DNA from: Pseudomonadaceae bacterium
GTDB taxonomy: Bacteria; Pseudomonadota; Gammaproteobacteria; Pseudomonadales; Azotimanducaceae
DNA length: 64,000 bases
Direction: 5' to 3'
Assembly: GCA_024743435.1 (NCBI GenBank)
Contig: JANSWO010000014.1
Location: 1-64,000, forward strand
Shown one piece after another: positions 24,835-42,567 of this stretch. Numbering within the stretch: the stretch's first letter is position 1; every line of letters begins with the position of its first letter. The notes beneath the pieces were generated by a model, which saw nothing but the letters and a program-made list of their open reading frames with translations, did no database searches and was not told the origin of the DNA. The position numbers and the translations under genes are program-made.

Positions 24835-25740
24835 TTGATTCGTCGCGCCGCAATAGCACTGCTGGTGGCGGCAACCTGTGCGACGCTCATCGTTAGCTGT
24901 GTGCTGCCCGGCGAGATTCGCGAGCACCGTTCGTACATTGAGTCCGAGGTGCACGCGCATCCCGATATTGAGGCTCACACGCTCAAGGTAGATGATTTCA
25001 CGCTGCACTATCGCGCCGTTGGCAATGCCCAGTCTGCGGTTGCGCTATGGATCCACGGCACCCCCGGAAGCTGGTCTGATATTGGCCGGCTCATGCGCAA
25101 CGAGCCATTCCTGGAATCCGTAAAGCTGGTTTCTCTCGACCGTCCCGGCTGGGGTGACTCCCAGTATCCGGACAGGCGCGCCGTCCCAACATTTGCGGAA
25201 CACAGTCGCCTGATCGGGCCACTGCTTAAGAAATTGCGCAACGAACACCCGAGCTTACCGATCATCGTCATCGGCCACTCATGGGGCGCCCCGCTGTTGC
25301 CGACCCTCGCGCTGGATCATCCCCAGAACATCGATGGCCTGATCGCTCTGGCGGGCCCTTTTGATGCCTCAATCACATCGCCTCGCTGGTACAACCGCGC
25401 CGCGTCTTTGCCAGGCATCAGAACACTGATCGGACGAGACCTGCGCACATCCAACCAGGAGATGTATGCGCTACCCGGGGAATTGAGTCGTGAAGCCGCA
25501 CGCTGGTCAGAGCTCAGCAAACCCCTGTGGTTGCTCCACGGTGAAGCAGATTCCCTCGTTTCCGTGGCTCACGCACGTTTTGCCCAGGCCGCCTTTGGCG
25601 AGATGCTCGAGCACGTTGTTGTTCTTTCTGACGAAGGCCACCTGCTCCAGATTCGCCGCACACCGCTGATTGCTGGCTGCGTGCAGGCCATGGCCGACAG
25701 ACAGCCAGACAAGTGCGCTCCGGAGCCTTTGCTGCGCTAG
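24835..25740 (+). CDS. Alpha/beta hydrolase, predicted lipoprotein
   Basis: 301 residues with a TTG start. The N-terminus is a lipoprotein-like leader ending IVSC (Cys22), so it is probably membrane-anchored in the periplasm. The fold follows: LWIHGTPGSW oxyanion segment, LDRPGWGDS, nucleophile GHSWGA (Ser149), acidic residue in HGEADSLV and His in DEGHLLQ. The substrate is unknown. It overlaps the end of the convergent beta-lactamase-fold gene by 4 bp. It may be co-transcribed with the preceding dehydrogenase gene (70 bp gap). Confidence 0.78.
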   Translation: MIRRAAIALLVAATCATLIVSCVLPGEIREHRSYIESEVHAHPDIEAHTLKVDDFTLHYRAVGNAQSAVALWIHGTPGSWSDIGRLMRNEPFLESVKLVSLDRPGWGDSQYPDRRAVPTFAEHSRLIGPLLKKLRNEHPSLPIIVIGHSWGAPLLPTLALDHPQNIDGLIALAGPFDASITSPRWYNRAASLPGIRTLIGRDLRTSNQEMYALPGELSREAARWSELSKPLWLLHGEADSLVSVAHARFAQAAFGEMLEHVVVLSDEGHLLQIRRTPLIAGCVQAMADRQPDKCAPEPLLR

Positions 25741-26921
25741 CGAGCGAAGTAACGGCTTAGTGCGTCAAACGCGACAAGCTTCAGGCTGTCATCCTCGGGC
25801 GTATCTGCGTGCTCCCATGCGCTATGCATCGCGACAACGAGCTTGTTGTCCGGATCGATGTAGATACCCTGGCCGAAGATGCCCGCTGCACGGTATCGGC
25901 CATCACCCAGCAACCACCAGAAGTAACCGTAGCCATCATAGCCTTTGGAGGGCTCTATCGAGCGCTGCATCCAACCCTCGGGAAGCACGCGAGTGCCGTC
26001 AGCGAGCACGCCGTCCGCCAGCGCAAACATACCCAGCCGAGCGTAGTCCCCTAGCGTCGCGCTGATACAACAACCGCCAAACTCACCGCCATCGACTTCC
26101 GTGAGGTTCCAGTACGCGTGCGAGCGCATACCGAACGGCCCCCAGATTTTTGACGACAGGTAGGAGGAAAGATTGTTACCGATCGCAGACCGCAGGAGCG
26201 TACCCGCCAGATTCGTCTCCGCCGTGTTGTAGTTGAATCGCTCACCGGGTTTGGCCACCGACGGTTTGGCGGCGAGGAAGTCGTACAGTTCGAGCGTCGC
26301 ATAAGGTGCCGATGCGACGTCTGAAGCGGGATCAGCATAGTCCTCATTCCATTGCACGCCCGACGACATCTGCAGCAGGTTGCGCACGGTTACATCGTCA
26401 TAACCGCTGCCTTGCAAGCGTGGAAGGTAGTCCGTCACGAGGTCTGCATCGCTTCGTATGTAGCCATCTTCAATGGCCGCGCCGATCAACATCGATACCA
26501 CGCTCTTCGTGACCGAGAAGGATATCCAGCGCGTGTCTTTCGTGTTGCCGTAGAGATAACGCTCGAGTAGAACCTTGCCGTCTTGAACGACCATGAGGCC
26601 AGCGACGTTAGCTTCTTTCAGATATTCATCAAGGCTTAACGTTCCATTGCTCGTGGCTATCGTTAGATCACTTACGTCGGCCAGTGTGCGTTCGAGCTCG
26701 AGCACATCAGTGCCCGGCGCAATAAGCCTCGTGGGCGCAAGCTCCCGCTGCGAGCGAAACGCTTCAATCTTTTCCTGACCTTGGAGAAATAGAATCGAAG
26801 TGTCCGCAGCTGGTTGCTCTTTCACATCTGCAAACGCGGTTGTCACCGGGAAAGAAAGACCCAGCACAAACCCTAGCGACATTGCCAACTGACTAAGGCG
26901 CTTGCGAGTAGTTTCTATCAT
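25737..26921 (-). CDS. Serine hydrolase, beta-lactamase class C / penicillin-binding fold
   Basis: 394 residues from the ATG at 26921, with GGAG before it. An N-terminal signal peptide (LAMSLGFVLGLSFPVTTAFA) shows export. The SxxK motif is in SFSVTKSV (Ser136, Lys139), a Tyr-containing FNYNTAETN motif acts as the second element, and the C-terminal region has the FGQGIYIDPDNKLVVAM strand. Such proteins are esterases, peptidases or beta-lactamases; nothing here proves antibiotic hydrolysis. It lies at the end of a minus-strand run with a VOC protein and two oxidoreductases. Confidence 0.85.
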   Translation of the reverse strand: MIETTRKRLSQLAMSLGFVLGLSFPVTTAFADVKEQPAADTSILFLQGQEKIEAFRSQRELAPTRLIAPGTDVLELERTLADVSDLTIATSNGTLSLDEYLKEANVAGLMVVQDGKVLLERYLYGNTKDTRWISFSVTKSVVSMLIGAAIEDGYIRSDADLVTDYLPRLQGSGYDDVTVRNLLQMSSGVQWNEDYADPASDVASAPYATLELYDFLAAKPSVAKPGERFNYNTAETNLAGTLLRSAIGNNLSSYLSSKIWGPFGMRSHAYWNLTEVDGGEFGGCCISATLGDYARLGMFALADGVLADGTRVLPEGWMQRSIEPSKGYDGYGYFWWLLGDGRYRAAGIFGQGIYIDPDNKLVVAMHSAWEHADTPEDDSLKLVAFDALSRYFAR

Positions 26922-26942
26922 CAAAATTCTCCAGATGTTTTC

Positions 26943-27395
26943 TCAAACGCGCTCACCCGATTGGGTTTGCACGAGTTCAATGACATTGCCTTCAGGATCT
27001 TCAAAGAAACACAACTGCACGGGCTGATCCGAACCAAACAGGCTGCGATCTGAGCGAAGCCGCGCCCCGGCCTGTTCCGCTCTTTCCAGCGTCTCGTTCA
27101 GATCACTGCAGTAAAACGTCAAGTAGGCGAAACCTGTGCGAGCGGTCAGATAGGCGGGTGTACTGTCTTGTTCCGGCGTCTGAGTAGGACGCATGAGTTT
27201 TATACGCTCGCCAACGGGAGTCACGAGCCAGATACAGAGGTAGCCGTCATCGGCCATAGCGAGTGGAGCACTAAGCGCTGCCGGGATATCCGCTCGCCTC
27301 TCCTCAGTACAGCCGAGCGCCTGTGTGTAGAAGCTCAGCATCCGATCGACATCTACAACCGCCAAACCCACTTCCACGGGGGTCGTCTGTTTCAT
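26943..27395 (-). CDS. VOC (glyoxalase/bleomycin-resistance fold) protein
   Basis: 150 residues, two beta-alpha-beta-beta-beta modules: VGLAVVDVDRMLSFYTQALGC at the start and FAYLTFYCSDLNETLERA, then FFEDPEGNVIELVQ at the end. The late Glu is the usual metal ligand of the second module. VOC proteins include isomerases, lyases and dioxygenases, and the reaction here is unknown. It is 21 bp from the beta-lactamase-fold gene and 12 bp from the oxidoreductase gene, so all are in one transcript. Confidence 0.82.
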   Translation of the reverse strand: MKQTTPVEVGLAVVDVDRMLSFYTQALGCTEERRADIPAALSAPLAMADDGYLCIWLVTPVGERIKLMRPTQTPEQDSTPAYLTARTGFAYLTFYCSDLNETLERAEQAGARLRSDRSLFGSDQPVQLCFFEDPEGNVIELVQTQSGERV

Positions 27396-27407
27396 TGTCG
27401 CGCCTTA

Positions 27408-28409
27408 TTACAGTTTCAATAGTTGCTTGCCGAAGTTCTCTCCGGAAAACAGCCGCAACAGCGTTTTAGGAATGTTATCGAAACCTTGCTGAATATCTTC
27501 CCGGTAGACGATATCGCCCGAATCGATCCAGGCGCGAAGGCGCGCGCGGGCAACCTCGTATTCAGCCTCGTAACCGCGCAGGAGAAACCCTTCCATACGT
27601 GCCTGCCGAAACACGATGTTGAAGTAATTGGCAGGACCGTCCGGAAGCGTTGCCTGCTCGTAGCGCGCAATGCCCCCGCAAACCACGACGCGAGCATGAT
27701 TGGCGATGCGCGCGAGAACGTCGTTCAGCGCCGGGCCGCCCACGTTGTCAAAGTACACGTTGATACCGTCACGACAGAGCTCTTTGAGGCGTGGTTTGAT
27801 CGGTTCATTCTTGTAATCGATGGCTGCGTCATAGCCCACCTCGTCAACGAGCCATGCGCATTTCGCCTCGCCTCCCGCAATGCCGATCGTCCGGCAGCCC
27901 ATGAGCTTCGCGATCTGCCCGACCATGGAGCCGACTGCCCCTGCTGCACCTGATACGACTACGGTATCGCCAGGCTCCGGTACGCCAACTTTCAGCAGTC
28001 CGAAGTACGCGGTCAGACCCGTCGTGCCAAGCGGCCCTAACCAGGCTGTCGCCGGAACGTCATCCGGCAGCAGCTGTAACGAGCCTGCGTCGACCGTTGC
28101 GACTTCCTGCCAACCCATCCGACCGAGCACGTGCGTACCCACTGGAACACGCTCGCTCTTTGATTCGATAACACGGCCGATACCCGAGCCCGGCATCACA
28201 TCACCAATGTTATTGCCAGCGGCATAGCCGGAGACATTCTCGAGCTGACCTTTCTGCGCCGGATCGAACCCGAGCGTATCTACCCGCACTCGCACCTGGC
28301 CAGAGGCAAGTGGAACCAGCTCAACTTCCACTTCACGAAAGTCATCAAGCTGAATTGGCCGGCCGCGCGGGTTGCCGTTAATCAGCCATTGTCGATTGCG
28401 CGTGCTCAC
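27408..28409 (-). CDS. NADP-dependent medium-chain oxidoreductase (quinone-oxidoreductase/PTGR type), copy 1
   Basis: 333 residues with a GTG start and AGGAG upstream. It belongs to the zinc-independent MDR group: RPIQLDDFR at the N-terminus, VVSGAAGAVGSMVGQIAKLMGC (Rossmann nucleotide-binding), YFDNVGGPALNDVL and the ending FSGENFGKQLLKL. These enzymes reduce alkenal/alkenone double bonds or quinones with NADPH. It is 33 bp from a second, similar gene, which suggests a tandem duplication followed by divergence. Confidence 0.88.
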   Translation of the reverse strand: MSTRNRQWLINGNPRGRPIQLDDFREVEVELVPLASGQVRVRVDTLGFDPAQKGQLENVSGYAAGNNIGDVMPGSGIGRVIESKSERVPVGTHVLGRMGWQEVATVDAGSLQLLPDDVPATAWLGPLGTTGLTAYFGLLKVGVPEPGDTVVVSGAAGAVGSMVGQIAKLMGCRTIGIAGGEAKCAWLVDEVGYDAAIDYKNEPIKPRLKELCRDGINVYFDNVGGPALNDVLARIANHARVVVCGGIARYEQATLPDGPANYFNIVFRQARMEGFLLRGYEAEYEVARARLRAWIDSGDIVYREDIQQGFDNIPKTLLRLFSGENFGKQLLKL

Positions 28410-28442
28410 TCTCGTTCTCCTATCCTCGCCGAGGCCAACTGC

Positions 28443-29450
28443 TCAAACCTTGATCTGGACCAGCATTTTCCCGGTGTTTTCGCCAGCAAGCACGCCGCGG
28501 AACGCGGCTATACAATTGTCGAAACCAACGACAATCGTTTCTTCATTGACAATCTCACCCCGTGCCAGCATGCCCGCCAGATCCGCAACGATGGCCGGTG
28601 CATTGCTGCGAAACTGGCCAGCGTTGAAGCCGAACAACGTAACGTTGCGCTCGATCGTGGTAAACAGATTTGCCGGTCCGCGGCGGTAGTTGTCTGAATC
28701 GTACAATTCAATCGCCCCACAAAGCGCTATTCGCCCCATGGGCGCCATCGCTTCGATTGCCGCCTCAAGCTGGCCGCCACCAACGTTGTCAAACATCATG
28801 TTGAGCCCATCCGGCGCGTATTCAGCGAGCTTTTCAGACAGATCATCGCTTCGGTAGTTAATGAAAGAATCAGCACCTAAAGCGTCTGTCACCCAGGCAC
28901 CCTTAGCATCGCTACCCGCGCTTGCAAGCACCGTGGCGCCGCGGCGCTTGGCTAGCTGTACAACCAGCGATCCAACCGCGCCCGCCGCGCCATTGACATA
29001 AATCGTCTCACCAGCCTGGGGTTTGAGGAGATGGTAAGTACCACCGTATGCGGTGAGACCGGTCAGCCCCAGAACGCCGAGAAACGACTGCAAAGGCGCA
29101 AGGTTTGCATCAACTGGGATCAATTCTGAGGCGTGCGCTACAAAGCGATCGCGAAAGCCCAGCATGCTCTGAACGGCCGCTCCAACCGGAAGGTTCTTGG
29201 CTCGGGATTCAACAACAATCCCCACTGCGCCTCCGTGCAAGGTTTCACCTACCTGCAAGGGTGCATGCGCTCCCGACTGCTCCGTCAGGTAGAGCCGCAT
29301 GTACGGGTCTACCGACATCCAGTGGTTTTCAACCAGCACCTCGCCTTCTGCAATAGCTGGCAGCGAGCGTTCAACAAAAGCGAAGTCGTCGTCCTTGAGC
29401 GCACCCTCAGGACGTCGCTGCATGGTGACTTCTGTGGCAATACCGCTCAT
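28443..29450 (-). CDS. NADP-dependent medium-chain oxidoreductase, copy 2
   Basis: 335 residues, same family as the neighbour: RRPEGALKDDDFAF, SVDPYMRLYL, GETIYVNGAAGAVGSLVVQLAKRRGA, MMFDNVGGGQLEAAI and LAGENTGKMLVQIKV at the end. GGAG precedes the ATG. The likely reaction is reduction of an activated double bond (enone reductase) with NADPH. It heads the minus-strand run that continues through copy 1, the VOC protein and the beta-lactamase-fold protein. It is probably part of a ring- or side-chain-degradation set. Confidence 0.88.
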   Translation of the reverse strand: MSGIATEVTMQRRPEGALKDDDFAFVERSLPAIAEGEVLVENHWMSVDPYMRLYLTEQSGAHAPLQVGETLHGGAVGIVVESRAKNLPVGAAVQSMLGFRDRFVAHASELIPVDANLAPLQSFLGVLGLTGLTAYGGTYHLLKPQAGETIYVNGAAGAVGSLVVQLAKRRGATVLASAGSDAKGAWVTDALGADSFINYRSDDLSEKLAEYAPDGLNMMFDNVGGGQLEAAIEAMAPMGRIALCGAIELYDSDNYRRGPANLFTTIERNVTLFGFNAGQFRSNAPAIVADLAGMLARGEIVNEETIVVGFDNCIAAFRGVLAGENTGKMLVQIKV

Positions 29451-29564
29451 GAGTGGGCTCCTGACTTTCGTTGCTATGCCGTCCGATCACGTTGCGCGCG
29501 GAGGCGATTTGGAACAGGTTACAAGATTTGCCAGAGCGACTTCACCCGACGTTTCTTTGATCTT

Positions 29565-40410: not shown

Positions 40411-40605
40411 TCCACAGTTACCGAACCGACTCTCGGGCCCTTACGAAGCCCAAGGTTCAAATGGCGATTCTAGCCCAGTACGGCGATAAGAATTTCACCG
40501 CATAGAGGCGACGAGCGGGACTGAGGCGTGAAATCACTGCGCTGTCTACTCGCGCACAATTTCACTAGGATAGAGCCGCAGTTCACACCCTGAAAGGAGG
40601 GGAAG

Positions 40606-41742
40606 ATGGCTCAAAATTTCATGGCGTATCCGGATCTACGGCATCCGTTTGCTGAAACGCCCATTCACGCCGATGGCAGCACGAGCGTCCTGTACCAGGG
40701 CAACACCATCGTGCTGGAAGAAACCGGCCCCGGAGATGGGCTGTTGATCCGGCCGGAAGACCTGCCACGCATCAATGGCTTTGAACTGAAGCCCGAGGGC
40801 GCCTGTTACGCCGATATGTGCATACCATTGGGCGACGACGTACTCATCGAGAAGGAAGGTGGGAACTGGTTCGACCTCGCCGCATTTGCTGACCTTCTGG
40901 GGCAGCCCTATGTGGTCGATACTGATCTCAACGTCTGGAGCTTCGCCGAAATTCCGGCCAAGCGCGACAGCATGATGGTCGATGCCATGGCGCCTGACTT
41001 CGAGGTGGAAGATCGTTCGGGCAAAGTGATCCGAATGGCGGATTTCAAAGGCAAGAAAGCGCTCATTGTTACCTGGTCCTCGTGGTGAGGATGCTTTATG
41101 GACGTGCCCGTGTGGCAACGTTTGTATGAAGAGATCAATGATCCGGACTTCGCCCTCATCTGTGTGGCAGAAGACACCGGCGGCGAAGCGGTAGCAGGGC
41201 CGATCTTTGATGCGGCAAACCCGACGTATGTGCAGGTGATCGATACCGACCACATCATCAGTAGTGCATTCAATTTCGTCAACGTACCGTCGGCTGCGTG
41301 GATCGATGAAGACGGTCGCATTGTTCGCATTGACGAGGGCACCTACTCCAAGCTGCATGAGTTTGGTGAAGGCGATGAGGCCATCTCATTCGGCACCGAT
41401 GTCTATTCACCGGCAGTGAAGGACTGGGTCGCCAAGGGCGCAGACAGCGAACATGTGAAGACGGCGTCTGACGTTACGGCAGATATTCGCCAACACACGG
41501 CTGACCAACAGAAGGCTGATGCAGCATTCCGTCTCGGTAACTTCTTTCGCGCACACGGCAAGAGCGACGAGGCAGAGCGCTACTGGCAATTGGCCCAGCA
41601 GCTCAACCCTGACAGCGTGAACTTTATTCGGCAGAATTTGACGCTGTCCGAGGAAGGCTCCGCTGGCGAAACCTTCCGCACCATGATGGCGAAGTATGTC
41701 AGTGAGGGCCGCGACTACTATCGGCCGCTCGACATCGACTAG
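40606..41742 (+). CDS. Probable selenoprotein: redoxin (thioredoxin-fold) with U-G-C active site and C-terminal TPR
   Basis: I read one 378-residue protein through an in-frame TGA at 41086-41088 (Sec161). The first part ends KKALIVTWSSW, the strand and Trp before the thioredoxin active site. After the TGA comes GCFMDVPVWQRLYEEI, then FNFVNVPSAAWIDEDGRIV with the cis-proline motif (Pro228). Thus one thioredoxin fold is split exactly at the catalytic cysteine position. Residues 1-120 are an unassigned N-terminal domain. Residues 305-337 are a TPR (AAFRLGNFFRAHGKSDEAERYW). AAGGAGG precedes the ATG at 40606. Alternatives: two coupled genes (GAGG precedes ATG 41098) or a nonsense mutation. A thiol/peroxide redox role is inferred. 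Confidence 0.8.
41097..41126 (+). promoter_or_regulatory. Candidate bacterial SECIS hairpin
   Basis: Starts 8 nt after the TGA codon. The 12-bp stem pairs 41097-41108 with 41114-41126, with one bulged A at 41118 and three G-U pairs. The loop is CGTGT (41109-41113), and 20 nt separate the TGA from the loop. As I recall the published bacterial consensus, the loop lies 16-37 nt after TGA and one of its first two bases is G; both hold here. It lies within the coding sequence, as bacterial SECIS elements do. Confidence 0.7.
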
Positions 41743-41844: not shown

Positions 41845-42567
41845 TTGGCAAAGACAGAGACAAACAAGCCGGCACTCCACCCGGAGTTCGTCGGCAATAT
41901 GGTTCGTACATTCAACGATCCCGACGACCATGGCGTTCACCTGCTATTCAATGAGTGGTGGGCCCACGCGCCAACCCAGACAATCTCGGACTATGTTGAT
42001 GCCCTGAAGGCAATGGAAGGCGCCGAGGCATTCCTGGCATCGGGCTACTTCGCAGACCAGCTCAGCATGGAAGAACTCGCGAGCTATCCAGCCGGCTCGC
42101 TGGGCTCGGGCTATCACGACTTCCTGAAAGGCAACGGGCTCGAGGTTAACCTCGCGACCAACTACAGCCAGCTGCATACCTTCATGGCTCAGTCCGGGCA
42201 ACTGGACCGCATGCCAAAAGAGATAAAGTACGCGATCATTCGCGGCTTTCAGATCCACGATATCCTGCACATCATCACCGGCTACACGCCAAGTGGTCTC
42301 GATGAGCTGTCCTTGCAAGCATTCTGTCTGGCGCAACTGCAGTTCCCATACTTCGGCATGTGGATGGCGACAAGCACATCCAGAATGACCTTCCTCGAGC
42401 CAAACTCAATCGTCCCTGTCATGGACGCGTTAAGCGGCGGCTGGCAGTTCGGTCGCGACGTTCAAAATTTGCAGTTTGAACGCTGGGAGAAGAGATTTGA
42501 GGAGCCGCTGGCCGATATCCGTCGCGAAGTCGGTATTGAGCCAGAGGGTCTGAGAGCCGCTGCCTAG
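41845..42567 (+). CDS. Coq4-like protein (ubiquinone-related)
   Basis: 240 residues with a TTG start (GGAG ten bases before). The Coq4 signature is complete: HD-x2-H-x11-E at His138, Asp139, His142 and Glu154 (RGFQIHDILHIITGYTPSGLDE). In eukaryotes Coq4 acts in the ubiquinone-synthesis complex. Bacterial homologues are found in quinone or other lipid contexts. C-terminal residues 190-230 have a basic/hydrophobic segment suited to membrane contact. It follows the selenoprotein gene and precedes cysteine synthase on the same strand with short gaps, so a common transcript is possible. Confidence 0.82.
   Translation: MAKTETNKPALHPEFVGNMVRTFNDPDDHGVHLLFNEWWAHAPTQTISDYVDALKAMEGAEAFLASGYFADQLSMEELASYPAGSLGSGYHDFLKGNGLEVNLATNYSQLHTFMAQSGQLDRMPKEIKYAIIRGFQIHDILHIITGYTPSGLDELSLQAFCLAQLQFPYFGMWMATSTSRMTFLEPNSIVPVMDALSGGWQFGRDVQNLQFERWEKRFEEPLADIRREVGIEPEGLRAAA

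Follow-up and report, generated by a model that had tools for sequence, protein, structure and literature searches.

Within the 64,000-nt stretch of DNA analysed here (the window), positions 40606 to 41742 constitute one reading frame interrupted by a single internal stop, the TGA at 41086-41088, which falls at codon 161 in the context WSSW-U-GCF (Table 1). This bears out the earlier note, which had read one frame through WSSW-TGA-GCF. Orthologues align with the gene over its full length at 64-75% identity and share the TGA with it. Standard gene-calling software would probably split the gene in two.

Table 1. Features of the TGA-containing redoxin gene in the window.
Feature	Window position	Strand	Basis
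Ribosome-binding site AAAGGAGG	40593..40600	+	5 nt upstream of the ATG; direct reading of the sequence
Whole gene, 378 codons with TGA read as Sec	40606..41742	+	ATG 40606, TAG stop 41740-41742; full-length orthologues
N-terminal domain (residues 24-114), predicted to be mainly strands plus two helices	40675..40947	+	AlphaFold2
Conserved CX4C pair Cys67/Cys72 in KPEGACYADMCIP	40804..40821	+	28 aligned proteins; pattern count in 79
ResA/TlpA-type redoxin (thioredoxin fold), residues 126-245	40981..41340	+	Pfam over gathering; Foldseek top match ResA
TGA codon 161, predicted selenocysteine, matched to the first catalytic Cys of ResA	41086..41088	+	ResA 1st9 alignment; 79-gene codon count
Cys163, presumed resolving Cys of the UGC motif	41092..41094	+	28 aligned proteins; ResA alignment
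Putative SECIS-type hairpin	41103..41120	+	Sequence comparison; consensus limits from PMC13188914
Pro228 of VNVPSAAW, presumed cis-Pro	41287..41289	+	Invariant in 28 aligned proteins
TPR-like helical pair, residues 304-336	41515..41613	+	TPR_2 below gathering; helices in model

The segments on either side of the TGA belong to one redoxin fold, as had been proposed: the Pfam models Redoxin (PF08534, 35.6 bits against a gathering threshold of 26.6) and AhpC-TSA (PF00578, 35.0 against 26) both run across the TGA, VNVPSAAW lies where it had been placed, and the top Foldseek match of this part is ResA (E 6.1e-9), the thiol-disulfide oxidoreductase of Bacillus subtilis (PDB 1st9). In the alignment with ResA, Sec161 falls on the first active-site Cys, whereas Cys163, invariant in the 28 aligned proteins, reaches the second across a one-residue gap; ResA itself carries a CxxC motif without Sec, and only the redoxin part is represented in its solved domain, which is about 140 residues long. 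AlphaFold2, run on 28 sequences, returned a model with pLDDT 83.7 and pTM 0.84. The C-terminal TPR of the earlier note survives in part: the C-terminus is helical in the model, but the TPR matches remain below threshold (TPR_2, PF07719, 21.4 bits against a gathering value of 27; PF00515, 20.6 against 27.8). ResA is extracytoplasmic and membrane-anchored; the window protein is probably cytosolic, since no signal peptide or anchor was seen by eye.

Ahead of the redoxin lies a distinct N-terminal domain, for which AlphaFold2 gave a pLDDT of 87.7 when residues 21-120 were modelled alone. Its CX4C pair is invariant in the 28 aligned rows, all of them TGA forms, and the pattern CX4CxP recurs in 78 of the 79 family proteins defined below, in Sec and Cys forms alike, the sole exception (L062) being a matched stretch without its N-terminus. 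The domain by itself matches the NCBIfam model NF041054 in all 29 sequences scanned. Pfam holds no family for the window's version and gave one weak match among the 29 members (SH3_4, E 0.035); a profile search of PDB sequences returned nothing at E 1, and Foldseek found no convincing match (best E 0.32). A likeness to the N-terminal domain of copper amine oxidase was considered, and no search supported it. Searching 97 genomes with the domain listed 55 matches in 36 of them, of which 53 coincide, in a comparison by eye, with genes of the UGC family; the remaining two, G058:C313 and G024:C93, are at the ends of contigs. Apart from these contig-end matches, the domain was not seen away from UGC-family genes in the 97 genomes.

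The earlier note had regarded the combination of domains as unfamiliar. This is not supported, as the architecture is covered by NF041054 (WAxxUGC_long), to which the window protein is homologous in its N-terminal domain, its UGC-bearing redoxin and its C-terminal part, and the same genome encodes a second member over the cut-off. The match extends over residues 48-365 and profile positions 8-340 of 354 (E 2.5e-70), at 237.5 bits (225 in the genome search), below the curated cut-off of 300. Other scores below it, from the window's clade and two related clades, are 234.3 (L009), 268.9 (L017) and 259.0 bits (L055). The motif W-A-x-x-U-G-C in the model's name is absent from the window protein, which has W-S-S-W-U-G-C; the motif is not strict, as a protein with WSSYUGC (L033) scores 449.6 bits, over the cut-off. 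The second UGC selenoprotein gene of the genome (L080, G000:C17:59934-61019) has WAPYUGC and scores 471.6 bits (465.4 in the genome search). Besides this difference of WSSW against WAPY before the Sec, the window protein is about 40 residues longer at its N-terminus and falls in a separate clade of a quick tree. There it groups in a clade of 23 members, all Sec forms (support 99). The sister of this clade is a WASWUGC clade of six, the next branch comprises 16 proteins, mostly acidimicrobial, and the genome's second copy belongs to a clade of 24 that stands apart. The Sec and Cys labels require three changes on this tree, which omits L016, L032 and L062; alignment A2 omits L016 and L032, and alignment A3 omits L036.

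Proteins of this kind have been recorded before. In their 2008 paper on Global Ocean Sampling data, Zhang and Gladyshev tabulate 46 under Prx-like (UGC-containing) (PMC2398784), a 2022 review lists a UGC-containing Prx-like protein (PMC9312934), and a 2026 review lists a UGC-containing TlpA disulfide reductase family protein (PMC13188914). As far as these table rows go, which give counts in 2008 and one accession in each review, the two accessions being MDE0950781.1 and MBL6689828.1, the proteins resemble that of the window in that an AhpC-TSA/TlpA-type domain carries Sec within a UGC motif (PMC2398784; PMC9312934; PMC13188914). Our literature search found no paper under the name WAxxUGC. Judged by the profile scores and the tree, the window protein is thus a member of a divergent clade that lies below the curated NF041054 cut-off and within an already catalogued kind. 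Given the expected split by gene callers and the score below the nearest curated model, mis-annotation may affect this clade, which numbers at least 23 such genes; revising the NF041054 model, or adding another for the WSSWUGC clades, would be useful.

The occupancy of the Sec position across the family bears on how the TGA is read. Among 79 family genes, the window's included, the codon is TGA in 75 and TGC in four, with no TAA, TAG or other codon; because these genes were selected as long-family matches, the count describes that family and not redoxins at large, and ordinary ResA-like matches without the TGA are also present among the matches listed. The 79 comprise the 60 loci of a first set (TGA in 57, TGC in three, again counting the window's), less one duplicate (L046, of L011), plus 20 further family places; three more TGA places (G008:C131, G037:C22 and G043:C22) lie outside them. 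The homologue alignment that the earlier note had suggested as a check finds a TGA or a Cys codon at position 161 in all 79 genes and, in the close genes compared, constraint on both sides; the ResA alignment together with the 75 TGA and four TGC codons confirms its placement of the TGA at the active-site Cys of a redoxin.

The constraint can be followed in 23 close genes (the window clade's 24 without L016). Pairwise differences at codon positions 1, 2 and 3 amount to 0.222, 0.123 and 0.528 in the 40 codons before the TGA and to 0.184, 0.129 and 0.551 in codons 13-60 past it, and drop to 0.125, 0.074 and 0.315 in codons 1-12 past it, the site of the putative hairpin. With third- and second-position divergence alike on both sides, these figures indicate that protein constraint carries on beyond the TGA. 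The orthologue L016 (CAJJAX010000024.1) has a fault in its frame past the Sec site; it is either misassembled there or a decayed copy of the gene.

Immediately past the TGA, the RNA can form a SECIS-type hairpin, with an apical stem UGCC/GGCA (41105-41108 paired with 41114-41117) closed by the loop CGUGU (41109-41113), 20 nt from the TGA. It lies within the limits that a passage of the 2026 review gives for bSECIS elements, namely an upper stem of 4-16 bp, a G in the first two loop positions, a loop 16-37 nt from the TGA and an MFE of at most -7.5 kcal/mol (PMC13188914): the window's version has four apical pairs, extendable to six with a bulge, and its 51-nt stretch has an MFE of -13.4 kcal/mol. 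Other clades have variant stems, CCUGCC/GGCAGG and CUUGCC/GGCAAG among others. A stem-and-loop test, whose pass rule was fixed after the sequences had been inspected, accepted all 75 Sec forms and none of the four Cys forms. It also accepted 51% of 37,500 randomised synonymous sequences, since most of the stem is already dictated by the encoded protein motif. Hence, the hairpin test alone is weakly specific and backs a Sec reading without proving it.

Other measures of the hairpin are comparably mixed. Among the window clade's genes, codons +6 and +8 are GTG in 24 of 24 and codon +7 is CCC in all 23 that have Pro there (the 24th has Ser); as equally extreme freezing occurs outside the core stem (GAA at +14 in 23 of 23, AGC at +58 in 21 of 22), codon freezing alone is no proof of a hairpin. 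In 26 distinct rows of 27 chosen from 60, the six-pair structure is 88.5% paired, which none of 500 shuffles equalled, and its covariation value was reached by five of 500. Pairs changed on both sides number two and further pair types four, figures that 115 and 415 of the 500 shuffles, respectively, matched or exceeded on the same 26 rows. Sliding the partner by +1 outscores the true register on covariation (0.242 vs 0.112), in part owing to a clade whose pairing is in a different register, and RNAalifold retains the four apical pairs only, none of them changed on both sides.

The genome of the window (4.15 Mb, 98.45% complete) has the machinery that a Sec reading calls for. All four genes that the earlier note had named for a search are present over cut-off (selA 523.8, selB 362.9, selD 259.8 and selC, the tRNA-Sec, 77 bits), and they lie together on one contig between 119,048 and 129,330, in about 10.3 kb. 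The selD match occupies the C-terminal portion of a longer frame of 728 codons (L085, 11357-13543, minus strand), the N-terminal half of which has, by eye, an FAD/NADH-dehydrogenase-type look. Among the matches listed, the TGA form occurs in 34 of 97 genomes, of which 30 have selA over the cut-off, two have a partial match and two have none (G047, 73% complete, and G040, 93% complete); selA is over the cut-off in 26, and partial in one, of the 63 genomes without a TGA form among those matches. Two genomes with Cys forms only have no selA; in G004, a third genome with a Cys form, selA is present, as is another gene in the TGA form. The gene is rare across the class, being found at E 1e-30 in one of 274 genomes drawn, the window's own. 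Among plasmid sequences, 37 records matched, all of them over less than 80% of the query; the best 20 of these 37 carry the annotation redoxin, TlpA or ResA in 19 cases and no annotation in one.

Could the TGA instead be a true stop, with a second protein starting at the ATG at 41098 or at the conserved GTG codons to make a coupled two-subunit redoxin? A GAGGA does stand ahead of this ATG, formed by the TGA-GGA-TGC codons, contrary to the earlier note's statement that only the first half has a ribosome site, and GTG is fixed at codons +6 and +8 in the window's clade. Yet the ATG, at codon +4, is found in only two of 24 close orthologues, and codon +6 is CTG or TTG in other clades; TTG is able to start translation, and CTG rarely does so. 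The four Cys forms, moreover, are unbroken single proteins, the split point would fall inside the active site, and nothing would keep a true stop from being TAA or TAG, yet it is TGA in 75 of 75. We consider this arrangement very improbable.

Two further readings, a Cys or Trp codon recently changed to a stop (in a pseudogene or by sequencing error) and a TGA reassigned genome-wide or read through unspecifically, strike us as scarcely credible. The former might be entertained for a single assembly in which the TGA is one base from TGC, TGT and TGG, but the same TGA stands in 75 of the 79 family genes, from many genera and, by the names of the sequence records, two phyla, and purifying selection acts on either side of it. 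As to the latter, an in-frame TGA inside a conserved gene is what reassignment would produce, but TGA terminates other genes of the window (an Rce1-like gene, identified by Pfam, and two genes named by eye, each with a further complete gene after it in the same frame), the residue with which it exchanges is Cys and not Trp, and the genome possesses a dedicated Sec system.

We therefore favour, at a probability of about 0.93, the reading in which 40606-41742 specifies a single selenoprotein of 378 residues, belonging to the UGC (ResA/TlpA-like) family of thiol oxidoreductases; that the TGA at codon 161 is decoded as Sec seems, from the comparisons made here, almost certain. The earlier note had called it a probable new selenoprotein: the Sec/Cys column, the constraint, the hairpin and the presence of selA, selB, selC and selD uphold the selenoprotein, whereas its novelty lapses with the tabulation of the UGC kind since 2008. 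In the selenoprotein reading, the hairpin would recruit SelB with Sec-tRNA, and the ribosome would then insert Sec161 rather than terminate. From what is known of the family, the UGC motif would provide a selenol and a thiol as a redox pair that closes to a selenenylsulfide and reduces a disulfide or a peroxide. More speculatively, the N-terminal CX4C pair might pass electrons to this selenenylsulfide or resolve it, and the C-terminal helices might bind a partner. A self-contained selenium relay, in which the CX4C acts as an obligatory dithiol (or metal site) to reduce or resolve the selenenylsulfide with no need of a separate thioredoxin, is a tentative extension that we rate as rather unlikely; a CX4C in a domain without a fold match offers, in any event, a testable idea on how UGC selenoenzymes are reduced.

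The genomic context gives little indication of a partner. Directly downstream in the window lies a Coq4-like gene (41845-42567); neither it nor the window's cysteine-synthase-like gene has a match at 16 other orthologue loci (tblastn, E 1e-8, in flanks of about 2 to 10 kb). When long frames were clustered, no neighbour family occurred in more than eight of 47 loci, the gene itself and antisense frames excepted; recurring neighbours look by eye like members of large superfamilies (short-chain dehydrogenases, flavin monooxygenases and ABC transporters), and others stem from four near-identical actinobacterial loci. A coupling to Coq4, or any operon-based function, was dropped, as the neighbours are not conserved across loci.

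The window has 12 pairs of frames of at least 100 codons each that are joined by a TGA, the gene at 40606-41742 among them. Two others, at 27408-29486 and 25737-27404 (both on the minus strand), each consist of two complete-looking neighbouring genes in one frame with the TGA between them; with complete-looking genes on either side, these TGAs seem to be ordinary stops, and the two pairs are useful false-positive examples for scans of TGA read-through.
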